Below, one piece after another: positions 6,909 through 20,465 of a stretch of DNA of 42,004 nucleotides. The DNA is from an uncultured Prevotellaceae bacterium (GTDB lineage: Bacteria; Bacteroidota; Bacteroidia; Bacteroidales; Muribaculaceae). The notes below the pieces were generated by a model, which worked only from the letters and a program-made list of their open reading frames with translations, was not told the origin of the DNA and searched no databases. The translations under genes and the position numbers were made by a program. The stretch is taken from positions 1 to 42,004 of the forward strand of contig CAMVAP010000028.1 of NCBI GenBank assembly GCA_947165485.1, given 5' to 3'. Numbering within the stretch: the first letter of the stretch is position 1; each line of letters begins with the position of its first letter.

Positions 6909-7139
6909 TAACTTTGCAAGCCTTCTTTTATAGATGTGTAGTTAAGAAACAAAGAATCTGTGACCATCAATTCGTTGTAGGGATTGATACATATTATATC
7001 TTTAGTACGCCTGAAGGGCCGAGCGCTTCAGGGCGCAGGATAATATGATGTTTTGAAGCTAAGCAGTCGAATAAAAGATGGAAAACCAATAACTGCAAAC
7101 TTGTAAAATATTAATAATTAATCAATTAAACTTAAATTT
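6909..7139 (+). promoter_or_regulatory. Promoter and long structured leader of the SusC operon
   Basis: TAACTTTG at 6909-6916 fits a Bacteroidetes -7 element, although the matching -33 region is poor, which suggests an activator may be needed. Transcription from it would leave an untranslated leader of about 215 nt before the susC-like ATG at 7140. The leader contains a hairpin at 7008-7035 (cgcctgaag paired with cttcagggcg, one bulged G). No sigma/anti-sigma or hybrid two-component regulator gene lies next to the operon, so leader-based control is plausible but inferred. Confidence 0.45.
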
Positions 7140-10100
7140 ATGAGTCTAAAACATTTACTCTTGTTCCTTGTCATGGCACTGGCCACGCTTGGTGTTTCGG
7201 CACAAGTGAATGGTACAGTGTTAGATGAGAACAACGAACCTGTCATCGGCGCCTCGGTCGTTCAGCAGAGCAATCCCAAGAACGGCACGGCTACCGATAT
7301 CGACGGTCATTTCACACTGAATGTGCCTGTTGGCACTAAGATTAAAGTATCCTACCTTGGTTACGAGGATGCAGTTGTTGCCGGTAAAGCTGGCATGACC
7401 ATTAACCTCCAGCTCAAGGCCACCACCATCGGTGAGGTCGTTGTGACTGGTTACCAGAAGGTGGACAAACGACTCTTTACGGGTGCTACCCAGAGCGTCG
7501 ATGCCGAGAAGACCAAACTCTCGGGTGTTGCCGACGTGAGCCGCGGTCTTGAAGGCCGTGTCTCGGGTGTGCAAGTACAGAACGTCTCCGGTACCTTTGG
7601 TACAGCGCCCAAGATCCGCGTGCGCGGTGCTACCTCTATCTATGGTAGCTCCAAGCCCCTGTGGGTTGTGGACGGTGTAGTTCTTGAGGACAACGTGGAC
7701 ATCAGCGCCGACGACCTCTCGTCGGGTGATGCCAACACGCTGATCGCCTCGGCTGTGGCCGGCCTGAATGCCGACGACATCGAGAGCTTCCAGATCCTGA
7801 AGGACGGTTCGGCAACTTCGATCTATGGTGCCAAGGCTAACGCAGGTGTGATTGTGATTACCACCAAGACAGGTCGCAAGGGTACCAGCTCGATTAGCTA
7901 CACGGGTGAGTTCACCTATCGCTTGAAGCCCAACTACCGCGACTTCAACATCTGTAACTCTCAGGAGCAGATGAGTATCTTGCGTGAGATGGAGCAGAAG
8001 GGATGGCTGGAGTATGCCAACCTGGTGAACAGCACCACCTCGGGCATCTATGGTCAGATGTACACCCTGATGGACACATACGATCCCGCAACCGGCACCT
8101 ATGCCCTGCCCAACACACAGAATGCCCGCAACCACTATCTGCGTGAGGCCGAGATGCGTAACACCAACTGGTTCGACCTGTTGTTTAACGACAACATCAT
8201 GCAGAACCACTCGGTGAGCGTTTCGGGCGGTACCGATAAGGGTTCGTTCTACACCTCGGCTTCGGTGATGACCGACCCGGGATGGTACAAGAGTAGCCGC
8301 GTTGAGCGTTACACCTTCAACGCCAATGCTATTTACAACCTGACCGACAAGATCAGAATCAAGATTTTGAACAGCGACAGTTTCCGTGAGCAGAAGGCTC
8401 CCGGTACCTTGAGCCAGAACGTCGATGTTGTGAACGGTGAGGTAAGGCGTGACTTCGATATCAACCCTTACAGCTTCGCCTTGAACACCGCCCGCACCGT
8501 TGACCCCACTCAGCGTTATGTGCGCAACTACACCAGCTTCAACATCTTTGATGAGTTGGAGCAGAACTATATTGACTTGAACGTGACCGACCTGAAGTTC
8601 CAGGGCGAGCTCAACATCAAGCCCATCATCACTCAGAGCCAGTCTCTCGAGTTCAACCTGCTGGGTTCGATGCGCGTGGCTACCACCGAGCAGAACCACT
8701 ATGTGCTGGACAACAGTAACCAGGCTATGGCCTATCGCGCTGGTATCGACCCCGAGAACGCCATCATCCGTTCCAGCAACTCTTACCTGTACACCGACCC
8801 CGATGTCAAGAACGGTCTCCCCGAGACGATCCTCGACAAGGGTGGTATGTTGTTCTACAACAAGTATCACAACAAGACCTTCACCTTCCGCGCATCCGGT
8901 CAGTACATGAAGGACTTCAACAATGGCCAGCACATCCTCAACCTGTTTGCCGGTATGGAGGCTATCCGCTTCGACCGCTTCAGCCAGGCATTTGATGCGT
9001 GGGGCATTGTTTATGCCAACGGTAACCTGCCCTTCACCAACTACAAGCTCTTCAAGCAGATGCAGGAGGAGAATGGTAGCTACTACAGCGTGGGTGAATA
9101 CCACCGCCGCGACATGGCTTACTTTGCTAATGCCAACTACGCGCTGCTGGGCCGTTACATCTTGAACGGTACCCTGCGTTATGAGGGCTCCAACCAGATG
9201 GGCCGCACCTCTCAGAGCCGCTGGCTCCCCACCTGGAACGTGTCGGCTGCATGGAATATCAACGACGAGCCCTTCTTCCAGAACCTTGCCCTGAGCAAGA
9301 AAGCCCTTACCTATGCTAAGCTGCGCTTGAGCTACTCGCTCACCGCCGAGAGCGGCCCCACCAGCGTTGCCAACGCCGAGGCCCTCTATTATCCCACTCG
9401 CCCCTGGCGCCAGGAGATTGACACCTATGAAATGGGTCTTCAGCTGAGCGGTCTGGGTAACAGCGAGCTCACCTACGAGAAGAAGCACGAGTTTGACCTC
9501 GGTGTTGACCTCGGTTTCCTCTACAACCGCATCAACCTGGTATTTGACTGGTACTTCCGTAACAACTTCGACCTGATTGGTCTCATCCGCACCCAGGGTG
9601 TCGGTGGTGACACCAACAAGTATGGTAACGTGGCCGAGATGAAGTCGCATGGTGTCGAGTTCACCATTTCTTCTCGCAACATCGAGCCCAGCCGTCCCGG
9701 TGGCTTTGCATGGAGCACCGACTGGACCTTCTCCTATGCTGTGACCGAGATCACCAAGCTGCAGTCGCGTTCGCGCGTCATCGACCTGGTAACCGGTAGC
9801 GGTTTCCCCTTGCAGGGCTATCCCCACCGTGCCATCTTCTCGATTCCTTACGCTGGCCTCGATGCTCATGGTCTGCCCCTGGTATATGATGAGAGTGGCG
9901 CTATCTCCAATGTGGGTCTCAACTTCCAGGAGTTTGAGAACCTGGGCTTCCTCAAGTATGAGGGTCCCGTTGATCCCACGATCACTGGTGGTTTTGGCAA
10001 CAACTTCGACTGGAAGGGCTTCCACCTGAATGTGTTCATGACCTACGCCTTCGGCAACAAGCTGCGTCTTGACCCGACCTTCGGCGCTGGTTATAGCGAC

Positions 10101-10490
10101 CTCACCTCGTTCACCAAGGACTTCAAGAACCGCTGGGTTCTCCCCGGTGATGAGGCTGTGACCGACATCCCCGCTATCGCATCTCGTCGTCAGGTTTACT
10201 CCAACAACTACCTGGGCATGGCTTACAATGCTTACAACTACAGCACTGTGCGCATCGCCAACGGTGACTTCATCCGCCTCAAGGAGATCTCTCTGACCTA
10301 CGACATCCCCAAGTCGCTGATTTCACGTCTGCGCTTGACTACCGCATCGGTTAAGCTGGCTGCCACTAACATCTGCCTGCTCTATGCCGACAAGAAGCTC
10401 AACGGACAGGATCCCGAGTTCTTCAACAGTGGTGGTGTTGCTTCGCCCACTCCCAAGCAGTTTACCCTTACCCTGCGTCTGGGCATGTAA
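7140..10490 (+). CDS. SusC/RagA-like TonB-dependent outer-membrane receptor
   Basis: A 1116-residue protein with a signal peptide ([22 protein letters not shown]). It continues with a carboxypeptidase-regulatory-like (CarbopepD_reg_2) domain ([18 protein letters not shown] to YLGYEDAVV), a TonB-box region near [10 protein letters not shown], a plug domain with [21 protein letters not shown] and [32 protein letters not shown], and a 22-strand-type barrel ending in TLTLRLGM. With the SusD-like partner encoded 36 bp downstream it should form a lidded TonB-driven importer. The neighbours are a metallopeptidase lipoprotein and a DUF4302-type lipoprotein, not glycoside hydrolases, so the ligand may be peptide-like; this is inference. 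Codon use is regular and GC-rich, as in a well-expressed resident gene. Confidence 0.96.
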   Translation: [1116 protein letters not shown]

Positions 10491-10526
10491 TTGATGTTCC
10501 ACATTATATAATATTATATAGAGATT

Positions 10527-12275
10527 ATGAAACTTCGATATAAAATCTTATTTGTAGGATTAGCTCTCATCGCTTTGTCCTCTTGCAAGGACTTCCTTGA
10601 GAAGGTGCCCGATACCCGCGTATATCTGGTGAACCTCGATCAGCTCGAACAGCTGCTCGTGACGGCCTATACGACGAGTAACTATGCACTGGTGGCCGAG
10701 ATGTCCACCGACAACGTGATTGACAACAACTCTCCTAGTGACGACGGTGTGCGCTATCACCTGAGCTCCTATGAGCAGTTCGACGAGCAGGTGTATGCCT
10801 GGGAGGACGTTGACCTCTCGATTTCGGGTGGTGATACCCCTTCGGGCGTGTGGAGCGGTTGCTATGCTGCCATCGCTGCTGCCAATGCCGTTCTTGAGAA
10901 AATTGAGGAGTTTGAGCAGACTGGCGAGATCGAGGGTGAGCCCATCGGCGCTACCGACCGCGCTCGCATGGATGCTATCAAGGGTGAGGCCTACATGATC
11001 CGTGCCTATCACCACTACATCCTGGCCCAGATCTTCTGTATGCCTTACCGTGGTCCCGAGATCAGCAAGACGCTTCCTGGCATCCCCTATGCCACCAAGC
11101 CCGAGACCCAGCTGGATCCCAAGTATGACCGTGGTACCCTGCAAGAGACCTACGACAACATCGAGAAGGACCTCCTGTTAGGTCTCCAGTTTGTGACCGA
11201 GGACTTCTATGATGTGCCCAAGTATCACTTCAACGTTGCTTCTTCCAACGCCTTCGCTGCCCGCTTCTACACCGTGAAGCGCGAGTATGATAAGGTGGTC
11301 AAGTATGCTACCGCTGCCTTCAAGGGTAACGACCCCAGCACCATGCGCAATGACTTCTGGGATCAGACCGACTTCTACTACTACAGCGACATCGCACGCT
11401 ACTACAGCAGTGTGGAGCGTCCCGGTAACTTCATGATGATTAGTACCTACAGCACTTGGGACCGTCGTTTCTACGGCTACCGCTTCTCCTGCAACCGCGA
11501 CGCGTTGCGCGGCTCTATCCAGGGTCCTGGCCCGTCGTGGGAGAACTGCAAGTGGTCTTACCGCCGTGGTAAGGAGCAGGTTACCTTCTCGATGATGCCC
11601 TGCTACCAGTACTTCTGCGCTAGCGCTGGTATGGAGTATGGTGCCTTCTTCGTGGGCAACTGCTTCGAGCAGTTTGAGTACACCGACAAGGTTGCCGGTA
11701 TCGGCTACGTTCACATGGTACGTCCCGAGTTCACCAGCCAGGAGACCATCCTGCTGCGTGCCGAGGCTAACCTGTTCCTGGGCAACATCGACGCTGCCTT
11801 TGAGGACCTCTACCTGTGGAACCACGAGCACCTGCTGCTCGACGAGTCTCGCAATGGCTCGATGACCGAGCTGAGCAAGGAGCAGATCCTGAAATTCTAC
11901 AGCTACTATGACAATCCCAACCGCAAGGATCCTGGCTTCGGTATTGTTAAGAAGTTCAACATTGATGAGGTTTGCCCGAGCAACACCTATCACATGACTC
12001 AGGAGATTGAGCCCTACATGCAGTGCGTACAGCACTTCCGCCGCATCCAGATGATCCACATGGGTAACCGCTGGTTTGACATCAAGCGTTACGGCTTTGA
12101 TGTAACCCACAAGATGGGCATCAACGATGTTTACCACCTGGAGGTTCTTGACCCGCGCTATGCTATCCAGATCCCGAGCGAGGTGATCGGTGCTGGCCTG
12201 GATGCCAACCCCCGCACGACCGTTAAGGCCGAGAATAGCCTTGTAGTGGACAAGGGTGCTTATGTTCGCCAATAA
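10527..12275 (+). CDS. SusD/RagB-family nutrient-binding lipoprotein
   Basis: A 582-residue lipoprotein: the signal peptide ends in the lipobox ALSSC, followed by KDFLEKVPDTRVY, the typical N-terminal start of SusD proteins. TPR-like helices are suggested by the segments IKGEAYMIRAYHHYILAQIFC and ETILLRAEANLFLGN, and the C-terminal RWFDIKRYG is a family hallmark. It caps the SusC-like barrel at the cell surface and binds substrate. The 36-bp gap after the SusC gene holds no terminator, so the two are co-transcribed. Confidence 0.95.
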   Translation: MKLRYKILFVGLALIALSSCKDFLEKVPDTRVYLVNLDQLEQLLVTAYTTSNYALVAEMSTDNVIDNNSPSDDGVRYHLSSYEQFDEQVYAWEDVDLSISGGDTPSGVWSGCYAAIAAANAVLEKIEEFEQTGEIEGEPIGATDRARMDAIKGEAYMIRAYHHYILAQIFCMPYRGPEISKTLPGIPYATKPETQLDPKYDRGTLQETYDNIEKDLLLGLQFVTEDFYDVPKYHFNVASSNAFAARFYTVKREYDKVVKYATAAFKGNDPSTMRNDFWDQTDFYYYSDIARYYSSVERPGNFMMISTYSTWDRRFYGYRFSCNRDALRGSIQGPGPSWENCKWSYRRGKEQVTFSMMPCYQYFCASAGMEYGAFFVGNCFEQFEYTDKVAGIGYVHMVRPEFTSQETILLRAEANLFLGNIDAAFEDLYLWNHEHLLLDESRNGSMTELSKEQILKFYSYYDNPNRKDPGFGIVKKFNIDEVCPSNTYHMTQEIEPYMQCVQHFRRIQMIHMGNRWFDIKRYGFDVTHKMGINDVYHLEVLDPRYAIQIPSEVIGAGLDANPRTTVKAENSLVVDKGAYVRQ

Positions 12276-12294
12276 TAAAAATTGAAGTAGTACA

Positions 12295-13434
12295 ATGAAA
12301 AAGATTCAATATTATATCTCAGCTTTGCTGCTCGTGGCAGTTGCTGCCATGTCATTCTCCTCATGCAGCGAGGACAAGTTGGGTGACACCATTTTCCCCG
12401 ATATTGACGAGACGCTGGATCCCACGTCCCATAGCTATAAGCTGGACAAGTTCCTCAAGGAGAATTATCTTGACAAGTATAACTTGACGTTCCTCTACAA
12501 GATGCCGGACATCAGCACCAACATGAACTACAACCTGGTGCCTGCCGATTACAACAACTCGGTTGACCTGGCCGTGCTGTGCAAGCACTTGTGGTTTGAC
12601 GTGTATGATAAGGTCGCCGGTGACGACTTCCTCAAGCGTTACGGTCCCCGCATCATCCTCTTGGTTGGTTCGCCCGCCATCAACGCTACCTCGGGTTCCG
12701 AGACCGTCGGTCTGGCCGAGGGCGGTATCAAGATCACCCTGTTCAAGGTGAACTCGATGGACGTGTCCAACTTCACGCAGATGAATGAACTGTACTTCCA
12801 CACGATGCACCATGAGTTTGCTCACATCCTGCATCAGACCAAGACCTATCCCACCGAGTTCAACACCATCTCGGTTGGTCGCTATGATGCCAACAACTGG
12901 CAGTATCGTGGCAACGAGGTGACCTCTCTTGGCTTTGTGACCCCCTATGGCTCCAGTGAGTACCGTGAGGACTTTGCCGAGACGATCGCTTGCTTCATCA
13001 CCTATACCGAGACCGAGTGGAATCGTCTGCTCCAGTTGGCCAGCCGTGGCTATGCCACCTCGGCCAGCGAGGATGACCTGGATGCTGTTTACTACAGCTA
13101 CTACTACTATCCCAACAACGACACCGAGGCTGAAATCTCCTATCTCGACGAGCGTTATGTTATCACTGTTGTGGATGAGGATGGTACGATTCACCTGTAC
13201 AATCGCAATGAGCGTGACAAGCAGGGTAACCGCATCGTTGTCTATGAGGTAGAGGACAAGGACGGTATCGATGGTGCCGACGCAATCCTCCAGAAGGTTC
13301 AGATCGCCCGCCAGTGGTTCCACGATGCTTGGAATGTGGATCTCGACGCCCTGCGTCAAGAGGTTCAGACCCGCCAGTCAACCTACTGGCAGGACATGGA
13401 TAGCTTGCGCCAGATGGTTTATGGCATTCAGTAA
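12295..13434 (+). CDS. Surface lipoprotein zinc metallopeptidase (TIGR04549-like, SusCD-associated)
   Basis: A 379-residue lipoprotein with lipobox SFSSC. The zinc site HEFAH is at residues 173-177, and E229 in DFAETIAC is the likely third ligand, a gluzincin-like arrangement. The family is known as substrate import-associated zinc metallohydrolase lipoproteins, found next to SusC/SusD pairs. It starts 19 bp after the SusD-like stop and belongs to the same operon. Its probable place is the outer membrane, where it would cut or bind proteinaceous substrate before uptake. The substrate is unknown. The acidic, tyrosine-rich stretch around residues 255-280 has no assigned role. Confidence 0.85.
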   Translation: MKKIQYYISALLLVAVAAMSFSSCSEDKLGDTIFPDIDETLDPTSHSYKLDKFLKENYLDKYNLTFLYKMPDISTNMNYNLVPADYNNSVDLAVLCKHLWFDVYDKVAGDDFLKRYGPRIILLVGSPAINATSGSETVGLAEGGIKITLFKVNSMDVSNFTQMNELYFHTMHHEFAHILHQTKTYPTEFNTISVGRYDANNWQYRGNEVTSLGFVTPYGSSEYREDFAETIACFITYTETEWNRLLQLASRGYATSASEDDLDAVYYSYYYYPNNDTEAEISYLDERYVITVVDEDGTIHLYNRNERDKQGNRIVVYEVEDKDGIDGADAILQKVQIARQWFHDAWNVDLDALRQEVQTRQSTYWQDMDSLRQMVYGIQ

Positions 13435-13451
13435 TGTTTCACCTTTAACCG

Positions 13452-14831
13452 ATGAAAAAGAAAATGAAGAAGTTTTTTAATATTTCATTGTTGACGATTG
13501 TCGCTCTCTCAACGCTCTCGCTGAGCTCTTGCAAGAACGAGATCGACGATATCTTTGACGAGGATGCTGTTACCCGCTTGGAGAAGGCTAAGGCTGAATA
13601 TACCAACATCTTGACCGATAAGGGCGGCAAGTGGCAGCTTGAATACTATGCCAACGATGAGGAGCCTGGGTACATCTACCTGATGACCTTTGCTAAGGAC
13701 GGTTCGGTGACTATCGCTGGTCACAACAAGTGGATCAACTACATCAAGACCGGTTCAGTAACCACCGCCTCATCCTATGGCAGTGAGGTGTCGATGTGGG
13801 AAGTCATTGCCGACAATGGTCCCGTCCTGTCGTTCAATACTTATAACAAGTATTTCCACATCTTTGCCGACCCCTATGACATCCCCAGCGTTGGTGGCGC
13901 AACCTCCGACGATGATGTCAACGAGGATGGCTACGGCCATGAGGGTGACTACGAGTTTGACATCATGAAGTATGTTGAATCGGCAGAAGGTGACACGCTC
14001 TTCCTGACGGGTAAGAAGTACAACCTGAACATGATTATGACACGCGTGGGTGTGAATCAGCCTGTCGATGACGAGGTCTATATGAACGAGGTTGTCGCTA
14101 TGGCCGACTCCTTCTTCAACGCTAAGGTGCCCCAGGTTTACATCAACCTGCCCAATGGTGTGCGCTGGATCGTCAAGAACGGTGCCACCAGCATCTTGAA
14201 GATGTTCCGTGAGGGTGCCGACGAGATCTCGACCGCCGAGACACACAACGTGATCATCACCCACGACGGTCTGTCGTTTATGGATCCCCTCACTATCGAT
14301 GGCTACACGATCCAGAACTTCACCCGTCAGGCCGATGGCTCACTGCTGTGCCGCGATGATCACGAGACCACGATGACTGCCGATCCCCTCGCTGTCGTGT
14401 TTGACAATCGCAACCTGATCTGGAGGGCCGACTTCAAGGATGTGGGTGGCCGGTTTGCTGAACTTGTGGCTCAACTGACCAACGAATTGAAGGCCTATAA
14501 CAAGTCAACTCTCCAGTATGCCCAGATCGAGTATGACAGGGCTACAGAGGTTTACAAGCTCTCGTTCAACATCAAGAAGAGCACGGTGAAGTACAACCCC
14601 ACCTACTTCTTTACGATGGAGCAAGTGAATGAGAATCAGGTGAAGTTTAACGTGGCAGCCGAGGGTGACAAGATGGGCGAGACCTATGCCACCAAGTGCC
14701 CCGCAATCAGAGCCATCGTTGATGAACTGGGTTCAACAACGATTAATCTGACGGCCAACTCGCTGTTGGCTCCCGTAAACATGAAGACCTCTGTGAACGG
14801 TAATGACTATATCGTCTGGAATCTCCAATAA
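13452..14831 (+). CDS. DUF4302-type lipoprotein of the SusCD locus
   Basis: A 459-residue lipoprotein. The start used gives MKKKMKKFFNIS and a lipobox SLSSC; the second ATG at 13464 would also give a usable signal peptide. The first mature segment, DIFDEDAVTRLEKAKAEYTNILTDKGGKWQLEYYANDEEPGYIYLMTFAKDG, matches my memory of DUF4302 proteins, which accompany TIGR04549 metallopeptidases in SusCD operons. No catalytic motif is visible. It starts 17 bp after the peptidase stop. A surface-exposed binding role is a guess from the company it keeps. Confidence 0.75.
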   Translation: MKKKMKKFFNISLLTIVALSTLSLSSCKNEIDDIFDEDAVTRLEKAKAEYTNILTDKGGKWQLEYYANDEEPGYIYLMTFAKDGSVTIAGHNKWINYIKTGSVTTASSYGSEVSMWEVIADNGPVLSFNTYNKYFHIFADPYDIPSVGGATSDDDVNEDGYGHEGDYEFDIMKYVESAEGDTLFLTGKKYNLNMIMTRVGVNQPVDDEVYMNEVVAMADSFFNAKVPQVYINLPNGVRWIVKNGATSILKMFREGADEISTAETHNVIITHDGLSFMDPLTIDGYTIQNFTRQADGSLLCRDDHETTMTADPLAVVFDNRNLIWRADFKDVGGRFAELVAQLTNELKAYNKSTLQYAQIEYDRATEVYKLSFNIKKSTVKYNPTYFFTMEQVNENQVKFNVAAEGDKMGETYATKCPAIRAIVDELGSTTINLTANSLLAPVNMKTSVNGNDYIVWNLQ

Positions 14832-14849
14832 AGTGATTTGAAATATCAG

Positions 14850-14890
14850 CCAGGGCATCTTCCCTGACGGGTGTAATGCCCTGGTTGTTT
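14850..14890 (+). terminator. Hairpin between the DUF4302-type and dockerin genes
   Basis: A 9-bp perfect stem (ccagggcat at 14850-14858, atgccctgg at 14876-14884) is followed by TTGTTTC. The T tract is weak, so it may act as a partial terminator that lowers expression of the dockerin gene relative to the receptor genes. Confidence 0.6.
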
Positions 14891-14940
14891 CAATGATATT
14901 AATTCACTATTTATTAACATAACTAAATTATTAAAAGTTT

Positions 14941-16887
14941 ATGAAAAAATTCTTACTTTTAGCAGTTGCAGCGCTTGTTTTCTCAGGTGCCAATGCTCAA
15001 CTCAAGAGAGGGGTCCAGGCTGCTAATTTCAATCATCCCAAGCAGGTTTGCGTTAAGAACACTGCTATTGCTCCCACGATGGAGATGAAGATGGCTACGC
15101 CTGAGGAGAAAGCCAACTATAAGAAGGCTCCCAAGAAGGCTGGCTATATTGAGCCCTACTACGTGCGTCCCGCTGGTGCATACTTCTCACCGTTCATCGC
15201 TGTTGACGGTCGTGGTCTCTATTCCTATGGAAACTGGACCTTCTTGATCACCAAGCCTTTTGGTGAATACACCTACAAGGGTGATGCCTATGGTAACGAT
15301 GGCTCCTACACCTATGTATGGCAGTTCTATGACAGACAGAAAGAGTACTTCGATATTAATACCCAGGAATTGACCTATTCCTCCTTCTTTACAGTTGATG
15401 ATGCCCCCATCTTCAACATGGTAGAGGGTGATCCCTATAGTGAAAATTCTGACTGGTATTCTTATCAGATGAAGAATTTTGACATGGGTGGTACCGATGA
15501 GAATCCCGAAATCAAAGGCGAGTATCCCGTTCAGATTGCATCGATAACCAATTCCGAGATGTATGAGGAGGGCGTTGAGTTCCTGCTCACCAGCAAGACC
15601 ATGGTTAATGGTGGCCGCTATGGCACTCTTTCCAATGGTTCTATCACCCGCTTCACGGGTGCAGAGCCCTATGGCAACAACGAGTACGGATGGTGGTTTG
15701 GTAAGAATGGTTCGCACATCGACGGTATGGCTCAGATTTTTGAGAAGCCCAGCCATCCCTATATGTTGAAGAACGTTTACCTCCAGGCCTATACCGACAT
15801 GGTAGTTACCGACAACGTGAAGTTGACCTGTAAGGTTTACAAGCTGGATCAGATTCCCGAATATATCGACGGTGATAATGTAACGCTGCCCGAGGTTCCC
15901 GGTGAACTCATCGTGACTGGTGAAGCTCTGGTTACGCCTCAGACTGCTGCCGACAAGAATGGTCTGATCACCTTCACCCTCTACGGCTTTGATGAGGATG
16001 ACCCCGAGCTGACCTATGAGTACACTCCGACCGTTGACTATCCTATCATGATCTGTATCGATGGTTACAACGATCCCGAGGCTGAAGCGCTCGTGGACTT
16101 CTCGACATTCGTTTCTGTTGACTGGGACACCGATGAGGGTTATGGCGAGCTGGCTTACCTCAAGTACCCGAGGTATGAGTATGAGTATGATGAGGAAGGT
16201 AATCCCATTTTGGATGAGCAGGGTAACCCCATCCGTCACTTCACCGGTGAATATTTCTGGAGCGGTTTGAACAACTTCTTCCAGGGCCCCATGCAGATGA
16301 AGACTGGTCTCATGATCATGATTGCTGTCGAGAATCCTTTCTTGAGCTACTACTATAGCGAGTTTGAGGACGGTGAGTTCACTTTCCCCAACGAGGGTGG
16401 TAACTTCCACAAGGTTTATGAGTATGTTGACACATTAGGCAATCCCGATCCCGTTGACATTAACTATCTGGCATTCTTCTGCACCCTGCCCAGTGCCGAC
16501 GGTGACTGGAGTGTTACCTGGAATGGTGAGGAAGATTTGCCTGACTGGCTGAACATCGAACTTGAGGATATTGAGACCTACGAGACTGGTACTGTCGTAT
16601 TTGCCGACGTTACTGCTGCTCCTCTGCCCGAGGGCGTTAAGTATCGTGAGGCTGTGATCCGCTTCGAGATTCCCGGTGACTACAAGGAGTATAAGTTCAT
16701 GCAGGGTGAGTATGTGCCTCTTCGCGGTGACGTGAATGGTGACGGTGAGGTGAACATCGCCGACATCAATGCCCTTATCGACATGATTCTCGCCGCTAAC
16801 GCTGCCTCCAATGGCGACGTGAACGGTGACGGTGAGGTGAACATCGCCGACATCAATGCCGTTATCGACATCATCCTGAACTCGTAA
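14941..16887 (+). CDS. Secreted protein with a C-terminal type I dockerin
   Basis: A 648-residue protein with a cleavable signal peptide (MKKFLLLAVAALVFSGANA). The middle, about residues 25-590, is acidic, rich in Tyr, Gly and Asp, and I do not recognise it. The last ~55 residues contain two calcium-loop/helix units, each with DVNGDGEVNIADINA, followed by IDMIL and IDIIL. That is the duplicated F-hand of a type I dockerin. Dockerins normally bind cohesins, but no cohesin is visible in this window. No T9SS sorting domain is present. The gene lies 109 bp after the DUF4302-type gene across a hairpin, so it may be a fifth, down-tuned gene of the locus or a separate unit. Confidence 0.85.
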   Translation: MKKFLLLAVAALVFSGANAQLKRGVQAANFNHPKQVCVKNTAIAPTMEMKMATPEEKANYKKAPKKAGYIEPYYVRPAGAYFSPFIAVDGRGLYSYGNWTFLITKPFGEYTYKGDAYGNDGSYTYVWQFYDRQKEYFDINTQELTYSSFFTVDDAPIFNMVEGDPYSENSDWYSYQMKNFDMGGTDENPEIKGEYPVQIASITNSEMYEEGVEFLLTSKTMVNGGRYGTLSNGSITRFTGAEPYGNNEYGWWFGKNGSHIDGMAQIFEKPSHPYMLKNVYLQAYTDMVVTDNVKLTCKVYKLDQIPEYIDGDNVTLPEVPGELIVTGEALVTPQTAADKNGLITFTLYGFDEDDPELTYEYTPTVDYPIMICIDGYNDPEAEALVDFSTFVSVDWDTDEGYGELAYLKYPRYEYEYDEEGNPILDEQGNPIRHFTGEYFWSGLNNFFQGPMQMKTGLMIMIAVENPFLSYYYSEFEDGEFTFPNEGGNFHKVYEYVDTLGNPDPVDINYLAFFCTLPSADGDWSVTWNGEEDLPDWLNIELEDIETYETGTVVFADVTAAPLPEGVKYREAVIRFEIPGDYKEYKFMQGEYVPLRGDVNGDGEVNIADINALIDMILAANAASNGDVNGDGEVNIADINAVIDIILNS

Positions 16888-16945: not shown

Positions 16946-16990
16946 GAGACGGGGAGCCTGATAGAAGGTTTCCCGTCTCGTTCTTTATTT
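16946..16990 (+). terminator. Terminator after the dockerin gene
   Basis: The stem gagacgggga/tcccgtctc (one bulged G), arms at 16946-16955 and 16971-16979, is followed by GTTCTTTATTT. It lies about 60 bp past the stop codon. Confidence 0.75.
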
Positions 16991-18056: not shown

Positions 18057-20465
18057 ATGAAAAAGATACTATTAACAGTGATGAGTGCCCTGATTGCTGT
18101 GGCATCGGTGGCTCAGAGTCATCGAGAGGTGACGTTGGGCGAGGGCTGGCAATTCTCGCGTGACAAGATCAGCTGGCAAGAGGTAACCGTGCCCCATGAC
18201 TGGGCCATTGATGGACCGTTTGACAAGAAGTGGGACCTACAGGTCGTTGCCATCAAGGAGAACGGCGAGGATGTCGCTACCGAGAAGTCTGGCCGCTCGG
18301 GCGCCTTGCCCTGGATTGGCAAGGGCTACTACAAGACCACCTTCACCGTGCCTCAAGGCTACGGCCATGCCAAACTCATATTTGACGGTGCGATGGCCGA
18401 TCCCCATGTCTATGTCAACGGCCAGTTGGCAGGCCACTGGGCATACGGTTACAACGCCTTTATTGTCGATGTCACCTCCTATATGAACACCGACGGCTCG
18501 GCCAACACGCTGGAGGTCAGTCTGGAGAACAAGGAGGAGAGCAACCGCTGGTACCCCGGCGGGGGCATCTACCGCCCGGTGAAACTCGTGATGACCAGCG
18601 AGCAGAATGCGTTGGACCTCTGGGGGTTATATGTGCATACATTGAGCATTGAAGGTGGACAAGCTGACTTGAGGGTTGAGCATAAACTTGATGTCATTCC
18701 CGACCGTGTCGAGGGATATGAACTGGATATTACTATTGCTGATCCTGCCGGTCGTCAAGTGGCCCGAAAGCGCACACATGCTGATGGCATGGGGCATTTT
18801 GCCACGCTCATGACAGTGAATAACCCTGCCTTGTGGTCGCCCGAGTCACCTCAACTCTATCGATTGACGGCTGTTTTGTTGCGGGATGGACAGGAACTTG
18901 ACCGCCAGAGCACCAAGGTGGGCATCCGCACCGTCTCGTTCAGCAAGGAAGGCGGTTTCCAGCTCAACGGTGAGCGCCGCAGCATCAAGGGCGTGTGTCT
19001 GCACCATGACTTGGGCCCATTAGGTGCCGCCATCAACAAGACGGCCCTCATCCGCCAGATCGAAATGATGAAGGCCATGGGAGCCGATGCCATCCGCACC
19101 AGCCACAACATGCCCTCCACCTGGCAGATGGAGGTGTGTGACAGCCTGGGCATGATGGTCATGGCCGAGAGCTTCGACGGCTGGCGTGAGCCCAAGGTGC
19201 GCAACGGCTACGGCAGTTACTGGGACGAGTGGTGGCAGCAGGACATCCGCAACCTGGTGCTCAACCACCGCAACCATCCCAGCATCATCATGTGGAGTGT
19301 GGGCAACGAGATTCCTGAGCAGTGGAAGCCCGAGGGCGTGAAGCGCTACAAGGACCTTATTACCCTGTGTCACTACTATGACCCCTCGCGCATGGTGACC
19401 TGCGGCATGGATCAGCCCGATGGCACCATCTGGTGTGGCTTTGCCCAGGTGGCCGACGTGCCGGGCTACAACTACCGCGTGCACAAGTATGACGAGATGA
19501 TCGAGCGTCTGCCCCAGGGCTTTATCCTGGGCAGTGAGACCGCTTCGACCGTGAGCAGCCGCGGCTGCTACTATTTCCCTGACACGGTCGCTACCAATAA
19601 CGCCCGCCCCGATGGCCAGTGCTCATCCTATGACGTGGAATATTGCTGGTGGAGCAACCTGCCCGACGATGACTGGAAGATGCAGGACGACCGCGACTGG
19701 ACCGTGGGCGAGTTTGTCTGGACGGGCTATGACTACCTGGGCGAGCCAACCCCCTATGACGAATACTGGCCCTCGCGCAGCAGCTACTTTGGCATCTGTG
19801 ACCTCGCTGGCCTGCCCAAGGACCGCTACTACCTGTATCGCAGCCACTGGAACAAGCAGAAGCACACCATCCACCTGTTGCCCCACTGGACCTGGCCCGA
19901 CCGCGTGGGCAAGGTCACTCCCGTCTATTGCTATACCGACTATCCCAGTGCCGAGCTCTTTGTTAACGGCAAGAGCCAGGGACGCATCTCCAAGAATGAT
20001 ACCACTCGTCTGGACCGTTACCGCCTGCGCTGGCGCAATGTCGTTTATCAGCCTGGTGAGTTGAAGGTTGTCGTCTATGACGAGCAAGGCAATAAGGCAG
20101 GCCAACAGGTCATCAAGACAGCGGGCAAGCCCAAAAAGTTGTTGCTCGAACCCGAGCGCAAGACCATCAAGGCCGACGGCAACGACCTGGCATACATCAC
20201 TGTGAGCCTCGTCGATAAAAACGGCACCCTGTGCCCCGATGCTGCCAATAGGCTTGAATTCAGTGTCACTGGAGCCGGCACCTACAAGGCCGCCTGCAAC
20301 GGCGATGCCACCTCGCTGGAGCCCTTCACCCAGCCCCAGATGAGCCTCTTCCATGGCCAACTGGTGGTCCTCTGCCAAGCAGGTAAAACCCCAGGCGTGA
20401 TGACCCTCACCGTCAAGGACCCCGCCACCGGCCTCAAGTCCAGCGTAAAGATCACCGTCAAGTAA
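18057..20465 (+). CDS. Secreted glycoside hydrolase family 2 (beta-galactosidase-like)
   Basis: An 802-residue protein with a signal peptide ending near ASVAQS, so periplasmic or outer-membrane side. Domain order: an N-terminal GH2 sugar-binding domain (GEGWQFSRDKISWQEVTVPHDWAIDGPF), an Ig-like domain, a TIM barrel from about residue 300 with acid/base E418 in WSVGNEIPE and nucleophile E494 in GSETAST, a DUF4982-like domain (PVYCYTDYPSAELFVNGKSQGR), and a C-terminal GH2 Ig-like domain. This architecture fits exo-beta-galactosidases acting on glycan ends; beta-glucuronidase or other GH2 activities remain possible. It has no SusCD neighbours of its own and is bracketed by GGGACA palindromes on both sides. 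Confidence 0.92.
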   Translation: MKKILLTVMSALIAVASVAQSHREVTLGEGWQFSRDKISWQEVTVPHDWAIDGPFDKKWDLQVVAIKENGEDVATEKSGRSGALPWIGKGYYKTTFTVPQGYGHAKLIFDGAMADPHVYVNGQLAGHWAYGYNAFIVDVTSYMNTDGSANTLEVSLENKEESNRWYPGGGIYRPVKLVMTSEQNALDLWGLYVHTLSIEGGQADLRVEHKLDVIPDRVEGYELDITIADPAGRQVARKRTHADGMGHFATLMTVNNPALWSPESPQLYRLTAVLLRDGQELDRQSTKVGIRTVSFSKEGGFQLNGERRSIKGVCLHHDLGPLGAAINKTALIRQIEMMKAMGADAIRTSHNMPSTWQMEVCDSLGMMVMAESFDGWREPKVRNGYGSYWDEWWQQDIRNLVLNHRNHPSIIMWSVGNEIPEQWKPEGVKRYKDLITLCHYYDPSRMVTCGMDQPDGTIWCGFAQVADVPGYNYRVHKYDEMIERLPQGFILGSETASTVSSRGCYYFPDTVATNNARPDGQCSSYDVEYCWWSNLPDDDWKMQDDRDWTVGEFVWTGYDYLGEPTPYDEYWPSRSSYFGICDLAGLPKDRYYLYRSHWNKQKHTIHLLPHWTWPDRVGKVTPVYCYTDYPSAELFVNGKSQGRISKNDTTRLDRYRLRWRNVVYQPGELKVVVYDEQGNKAGQQVIKTAGKPKKLLLEPERKTIKADGNDLAYITVSLVDKNGTLCPDAANRLEFSVTGAGTYKAACNGDATSLEPFTQPQMSLFHGQLVVLCQAGKTPGVMTLTVKDPATGLKSSVKITVK

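Follow-up and report, generated by a model that had tools for sequence, protein, structure and literature searches.

We analyzed a 42,004-nucleotide stretch of DNA (the window) from an uncultured Prevotellaceae bacterium (contig CAMVAP010000028.1), in which five rightward genes form a SusCD locus. Judged from sequence comparisons, the locus probably encodes an importer of protein-derived nutrients, and the secreted, presumably surface-located partner encoded by its fifth gene has a dockerin in place of a sorting domain of the type IX secretion system (T9SS). The genes and the dockerin module are listed below, each with the evidence used to assign it.

7140 to 10490, + strand: gene 1, SusC/RagA TonB-dependent importer (icsC-like); TIGR04056
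10527 to 12275, + strand: gene 2, SusD-like lid lipoprotein (icsD-like) with lipobox LSSC; PF14322 and N-terminus
12295 to 13434, + strand: gene 3, TIGR04549/Peptidase_Mx1 (Mx1) zinc metallohydrolase lipoprotein (icsE-like) with H173, E174, H177 and E229; TIGR04549 and residues
13452 to 14831, + strand: gene 4, DUF4302 lipoprotein; PF14135
14941 to 16887, + strand: gene 5, secreted protein comprising a signal peptide, a conserved body and a module at the C-terminus; profile and synteny
16726 to 16875, + strand: dockerin type I module of gene 5 with two DVNGDGEVNIADIN repeats; PF00404

The gene content agrees with the original prediction, and every profile score exceeded its cut-off: 592.5 bits for SusC against TIGR04056 (cut-off 368.25), 121.2 bits for SusD against PF14322 (27), 285.3 bits against TIGR04549 (75) for the metallohydrolase, which adjoins SusC/SusD and contains a HEFAH motif, and 153.2 bits for the DUF4302 protein against PF14135 (27). 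Residues 596–645 of gene 5 matched PF00404 (Dockerin type I) with 32.6 bits (22.9) and contain two calcium-loop repeats; gene 5 matched neither TIGR04183 nor PF18962. Lipobox signals were identified at the N-termini of SusD, Mx1, and the DUF4302 protein, and gene 5 has a plain signal peptide. Genes 1 to 4 are separated by 17–36 bases, and 109 bases lie ahead of gene 5.

We compared this locus with those of other draft genomes. TIGR04549 is rare across the phylum (24 of 392 genomes). Among 36 same-genus genomes, the gene was detected in all but two, which are 89% and 62% complete. At the 35 loci in these 34 genomes, Mx1 and DUF4302 were present in 35, SusD and gene 5 in 34, and SusC in 33, and the missing genes fall at contig ends. 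These close loci carry, among others, the labels uncultured Prevotellaceae, Muribaculaceae, or Bacteroidales from ruminants. A profile of the gene 5 body without its tail detected the gene directly after DUF4302 in 33 of the 35 loci; L093 was added by tblastn, and L089 stops at a contig edge. At 20 loci from other families, tblastn recovered SusC, SusD, and Mx1 in this order at 19; a DUF4302-like gene was detected at 10 of them with tblastn and at 17 with blastp. Because the gene order recurs in relatives, a chance arrangement is excluded. Beyond the genus, the gene 5 body was detected at 64 of the 80 loci of a named scan (contig ends coincide with 7 of the 16 misses). In a survey of 23 other-family loci, the body profile detected gene 5 in just one (L101), which makes it a later addition within Bacteroidales.

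While the body of gene 5 is conserved, its last 60–90 residues vary. Nearly every locus in the window's clade has two dockerin repeats, and the tails at other loci are of a VYNVAGQLV...GMYILKFNNNTTVKTIK or YDLQGRRVANPEKGIYIKK type, resembling T9SS C-terminal sorting domains (CTDs). The dockerin and the T9SS sorting domain are unrelated folds. We aligned the window's gene 5 with 54 of 66 gene 5 sequences, leaving out second copies and five others. Among these 55 orthologs, Pfam identified Dockerin_1 in 31 and Por_Secre_tail (PF18962) in 9, and NCBIfam identified TIGR04183 in 10 (E ≤ 0.05); about 15 of the 55 tails match no model and were classified by eye or by rule, the rules being purpose-made regular expressions, as also for the C10 tails below. 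The original prediction had called for a neighborhood survey for a recurring dockerin gene. Gene 5 does recur as the next gene of the set, but the tails of its orthologs outside the window's clade are CTD-like.

To place these changes in order, we mapped the tail states onto a SusC tree built with a quick method. The tree was drawn from 112 rows, from which 39 stateless rows and L225 were dropped and two stateless rows kept as an outgroup. Of its 74 rows, 72 have a tail state, comprising 42 dockerin and 30 CTD-like tails, of which L179, L180, L201, and L220 were assigned as CTD-like by eye. Two changes suffice to explain the distribution, one gain of the dockerin and one reversal. The CTD-like tail is ancestral on this tree, the dockerin has a single origin at the root of a clade of 44 rows (SH-aLRT 99), and L074 and L077 revert to a CTD-like tail. 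Among the available portions of PMC6071333, PMC5831590, PMC8810776, PMC10266427, and PMC12098361, there is no mention of an exchange between dockerin and CTD tails.

The exchange at gene 5 parallels a difference across whole genomes. The window's genome has at least 129 dockerin matches at E ≤ 0.01, with 150 of 208 candidates scored. At E ≤ 0.001, at least 29 dockerins were found in each of the 36 same-genus genomes (29–89 among the matches listed), and in genomes of other families there were 0–2 in 23 of 24 and 38 in one. TIGR04183 matches numbered 3–15 per same-genus genome and at least 27 in 20 of the 24 genomes of other families. Sister genomes divide in the same way: 14 with a CTD-like gene 5 tail have 0–3 dockerins, and four with a dockerin tail have 50, 72, 62, and 130, with 8–125 TIGR04183 matches in the former versus 7–16 in the latter. 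Short tails score poorly, so low TIGR04183 counts are partly an effect of the model and the contrast in counts is blurred. SprA (TIGR04189), on which alone we judged the presence of the T9SS translocon, was detected in the window's own genome, in 33 of the 36 same-genus genomes, and in 23 of the 24 genomes of other families.

The proteins that carry these dockerins resemble T9SS cargo. Of 49 dockerins inspected in the window's genome, 42 end 1–6 residues before the stop codon. A loose rule assigned signal peptides to 38 of 40 full-length carriers, all 38 lacking a lipobox; the remaining two show no signal at the first ATG. Profile scans of 20 hand-chosen carriers identified nine peptidases (five C10, two M6, and two S8), two Cleaved_Adhesin proteins, two alpha-amylases, an endonuclease I, an NAGPA protein, a BspA-type LRR protein, and four proteins without a telling domain. 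Peptidases, adhesins, and similar carrier types are usual T9SS cargo, and the NCBIfam names among the families include a T9SS-dependent surface endonuclease. Like these dockerin carriers, T9SS type A cargo (TIGR04183/PF18962) consists of secreted proteins that are soluble and have a module at the C-terminus; orthologs of gene 5 carry the sorting domain where the window's gene 5 has its dockerin.

Homologs of the C10 peptidases were found in 11 of the 14 sister genomes. None of their 24 complete tails (30 loci, 6 cut off) contains a dockerin, and 23 are CTD-like, 15 by rule and 8 of the other 9 by eye; four coincide with TIGR04183 matches. This comparison is one-sided in that the C10 proteins of the window's genome were chosen for their dockerins, and its result is the absence of dockerins from the sister homologs.

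Several observations weigh against the interpretation of the dockerin as a replacement for the sorting domain, or against protein as the source of the imported nutrient. The peptidases were sampled from among dockerin carriers, and the 20 carriers scanned were hand-chosen. Four genomes of other families have 0, 0, 1, and 8 CTDs yet no dockerins, and five sister genomes with CTD-like tails have just 8–18 TIGR04183 matches. One genome of family f4 (G039) has 38 dockerins alongside 74 CTDs, and 6 cohesin matches; since it carries both tags, dockerin and CTD are not mutually exclusive. Weak cohesin matches, 1–4 each, were also found in 20 of the 36 same-genus genomes. Links to peptidases are no proof of a protein substrate, and three same-genus genomes lack the zinc site of the TIGR04549 protein.

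The cohesin matches bear on an alternative that we consider rather unlikely, in which dockerins plug into cohesin-like domains to form a cellulosome-like but peptidase-rich surface assembly that includes gene 5 and hands substrate to SusCD. The dockerin repeats are canonical: like the cellulosomal type I dockerins of CelS (2mte) and 1daq, those of the window have two calcium-loop repeats and a C-terminal location. Dockerins of rumen Bacteroidetes have been treated as cellulosomal, with carriers unrelated to fiber also noted, in the part of PMC6071333 at hand. However, the window's genome, which is 92% complete, yielded no cohesin (PF00963) match at E ≤ 1 beside its at least 129 dockerins, and cohesin matches elsewhere in the genus number at most 4 per genome against dozens of dockerins. 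Also unlike the cellulosomal case, nine of the 20 scanned carriers are peptidases. The one-for-one replacement of CTD-like tails in gene 5 and the decay of calcium loops in several of its tandem copies further argue against an assembly. Twelve regions with cohesin matches proved on inspection to be secreted proteins, several with dockerin or CTD-like ends, and not multi-cohesin scaffolds; the exception is one protein with two matches in genome G011. We therefore rejected a full cellulosome and kept a sparse version on account of the weak matches in relatives.

The G011 protein (L288) is a secreted protein of 1132 residues with two cohesin-like matches and a dockerin at its end. The cohesin matches of G039 include a 2466-residue protein with several, and G039 possibly has a real cohesin–dockerin system.

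The genome-wide counts and the tail comparison led us to reject the proposal in the original prediction of the dockerin as a docked partner specific to this locus: the body is the conserved part of gene 5, its orthologs outside the window's clade have CTD-like tails, and the dockerin is a genome-wide module in a genome with no detected cohesin. Dockerins fold upon calcium binding, and the dockerin could merely stabilize the C-terminus through calcium, with no part in export or anchoring. We regard this as very improbable, as it hardly explains the swap with sorting tails or the genome-wide C-terminal expansion on secreted proteins, and calcium loops have decayed in some copies of gene 5. The second copies concerned arise from tandem duplication of gene 5, which we observed at L068, L070, L071, L073, L079, L159, and L161; in several of them the calcium loops are decayed and the ADVNxxI helix is retained.

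Because the same body occurs at the same locus with either tail, and the secretomes swing in the same direction, the dockerin and the sorting domain are best explained as doing one job. The pattern points to a role in export or anchoring that passed to dockerins in the window's clade. Gene 5 would be a soluble secreted partner working outside the cell, and, having no lipid anchor, would depend on its C-terminal module for reaching the surface or being retained there. The ancestral module would have been a T9SS sorting domain, for which the dockerin was swapped in within the window's clade, where it would serve generally as a C-terminal tag for the surface rather than plug into a cellulosome. 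The reader of the dockerin may be the T9SS, a new receptor, or a rare cohesin-like protein. More tentatively, the dockerin of this rumen clade could be a new C-terminal targeting signal, read by the retained T9SS or a new receptor and not by a cohesin, that took the place of the sorting domain on gene 5 and on dozens of other secreted proteins, namely peptidases, adhesins, and hydrolases.

We next considered what the locus imports. In the proposed mechanism, SusC would act as the TonB-driven channel and SusD as its lid, the TIGR04549 and DUF4302 lipoproteins would present or trim substrate at the surface, and protein-derived nutrients, either peptides or iron from proteins, would be taken up. 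Secreted M6 peptidase genes, encoding five proteins in total, directly follow gene 5 at four Prevotella-labeled loci (L220, L223, L226, and L231). Among 50 of the 79 downstream neighbors in other lineages, five members match Peptidase_M6, and none of the 25 Pfam families listed for these 50 neighbors (of 59) is a glycoside hydrolase family. The available part of PMC7782687 cites SusCD pairs that have peptides bound. Protein or peptide capture, as originally proposed, is still the likeliest function. Peptidase activity is not needed everywhere, as described below for the zinc site.

Uptake of glycans or glycopeptides, as in classical polysaccharide utilization loci (PULs), is improbable in our estimation. 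The SusCD architecture would fit it, as would a BACON match in 4 of 55 gene 5 orthologs, and the B. thetaiotaomicron relative of the locus presumably lies beside GH92 alpha-mannosidase genes. However, a profile scan found no glycan enzyme among the five genes, so the locus lacks the combination of SusCD and glycan enzymes that marks a PUL, and the downstream neighbors described above also count against it. The nearest carbohydrate enzyme is a GH2 gene at 18057 to 20465, behind engB. It keeps the same place in close relatives as part of the engB backbone. We rejected the PUL reading on these grounds. The original description of a SusCD locus that lacks its own glycan enzymes is thus borne out, and the arrangement is conserved.

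Known SusCD systems offer two points of comparison. Like the window's locus, importers of the RagAB and BT2263-64 type, cited with bound peptides in the available part of PMC7782687, combine a SusC channel with a SusD lid and do not need glycan enzymes; the set of Mx1, DUF4302, and gene 5 belongs to the window's locus and is not in that part of the account. The window's SusC is closest among solved chains to 8ypu/8ypt (295 bits), compared with 183 bits for RagA (6sli) and 107 bits for BT2264 (5fq6); no paper on PDB entry 8YPT turned up in our literature search. The TIGR04549 protein has solved relatives in 4l7a and 9urd, and a search by sequence found no solved relative of the DUF4302 protein.

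The second comparison is the iron capture system (ICS; icsA and icsC-icsH) of Capnocytophaga canimorsus and Riemerella anatipestifer. Going by family names, it has the same order of SusC, SusD, and TIGR04549, and the available text of PMC5429918 likewise names no glycan enzyme. The ICS has four further genes (icsA, icsF, icsG, and icsH), and no dockerin is named in that text. The R. anatipestifer homologs of icsC, icsD, and icsE are B739_0103 (SusC/RagA), B739_0102 (RagB), and B739_0101, the last of which is named substrate import-associated zinc metallohydrolase, the TIGR04549 name; all three are raised under iron limitation, and each of seven ICS genes of C. canimorsus is needed for the use of serotransferrin iron (PMC5429918, in part). 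The statement in the original prediction that the import function of such loci is not established overlooks this system.

By analogy, SusC could import iron stripped from an iron-binding protein at the surface. We consider this unlikely, as BT3958-59 (SusCD) and BT3961 (DUF4302) of B. thetaiotaomicron have negative fold changes in an iron-depletion table (PMC10434189, in part). In addition, a fumarase gene is the only iron gene recognized beside the window's operon. Taken together, the M6 neighbors, the peptide-bound SusCD pairs, and the declines in the iron table favor protein-derived nutrients, although iron has to be taken seriously as an alternative.

As originally reported, the TIGR04549 protein has a HEFAH motif with H173, E174, and H177, followed by E229. 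Among 24 aligned relatives, E174 is invariant and H173, H177, and E229 are nearly invariant. All four residues are intact in 133 of 138 Mx1 sequences (L153 yielded none), a count biased toward intact sites and blind to lost ones for the 80 loci of the named scan, which were found through an HHEF-containing motif. In L152, D replaces E229. In L083, L084, L085, and L086, which come from three same-genus genomes (G018, G021, and G024), R173, N or T177, and V225 are found; both zinc histidines are lost (HREFAN or HREFAT) and the gene is retained. Pairwise dN/dS (nonsynonymous to synonymous substitution ratio) was 0.11–0.17 among these three genomes versus 0.05–0.19 in seven pairs with intact motifs, with synonymous sites close to saturation. 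On these values we rejected, for now, the possibility that the HREFAN forms are pseudogenes. Since the altered forms are under purifying selection, some lineages can do without catalysis but not without the protein itself, which points to an additional binding or structural role for the TIGR04549 protein.

The noncoding features of the operon are as follows.

6909 to 6916, + strand: promoter box of the operon, TAACTTTG; sequence, kept across an alignment of 19 same-genus upstream regions
6917 to 7139, + strand: leader with blocks conserved in the genus; upstream alignment
14850 to 14884, + strand: gene 4–5 intergenic hairpin CCAGGGCAT...ATGCCCTGG with TTGTTT behind it; terminator-like or attenuating
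16946 to 16979, + strand: terminator-like hairpin after gene 5 with 14 pairs and a T-rich tail

We take the TAACTTTG box, at which both the operon and the originally described region start, to be the Bacteroidetes -7 element. In the SusC leader, conserved blocks flank a variable hairpin at 19 close loci, and the leader had no match in Rfam up to E = 1. A strong hairpin between genes 4 and 5 (dG ≤ -25) was found in 27 of 29 distinct gaps from the window and the same genus, as judged against mononucleotide shuffles. Prevotella-type gaps were compared at L216, L220, L221, L223, L225, L226, L227, L229, L231, and L233; eight of these ten are 25–38 bases long and free of hairpins, and those of L231 and L233 are longer, each with a hairpin. 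The hairpin search after gene 5 found 3, against a shuffle mean of 1.9. The comparison of the gene 4–5 hairpins, together with the downstream terminator, indicates that gene 5 belongs to the set, and in the window's genus gene 5 is perhaps expressed at a level different from the rest of the set. The f31 loci L139 to L147 have a longer SusC of about 1240 residues, ahead of which lie two genes (about 203 and 371 residues) that may encode a sigma/anti-sigma pair.

These results connect an unexplained family of SusCD systems with the use of protein at the cell surface, and they document a zinc metallohydrolase that is retained after loss of its zinc site. If dockerins are surface tags, dockerin counts would be misleading as signs of cellulosomes in rumen Bacteroidetes, the sense in which they are used in the available part of PMC6071333. 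The exchange of tails at a single syntenic gene, reversed once within the genus, offers a direct test of the surface-tag idea. If that idea is true, a large share of the secretome of these bacteria would be predictable from a single module.

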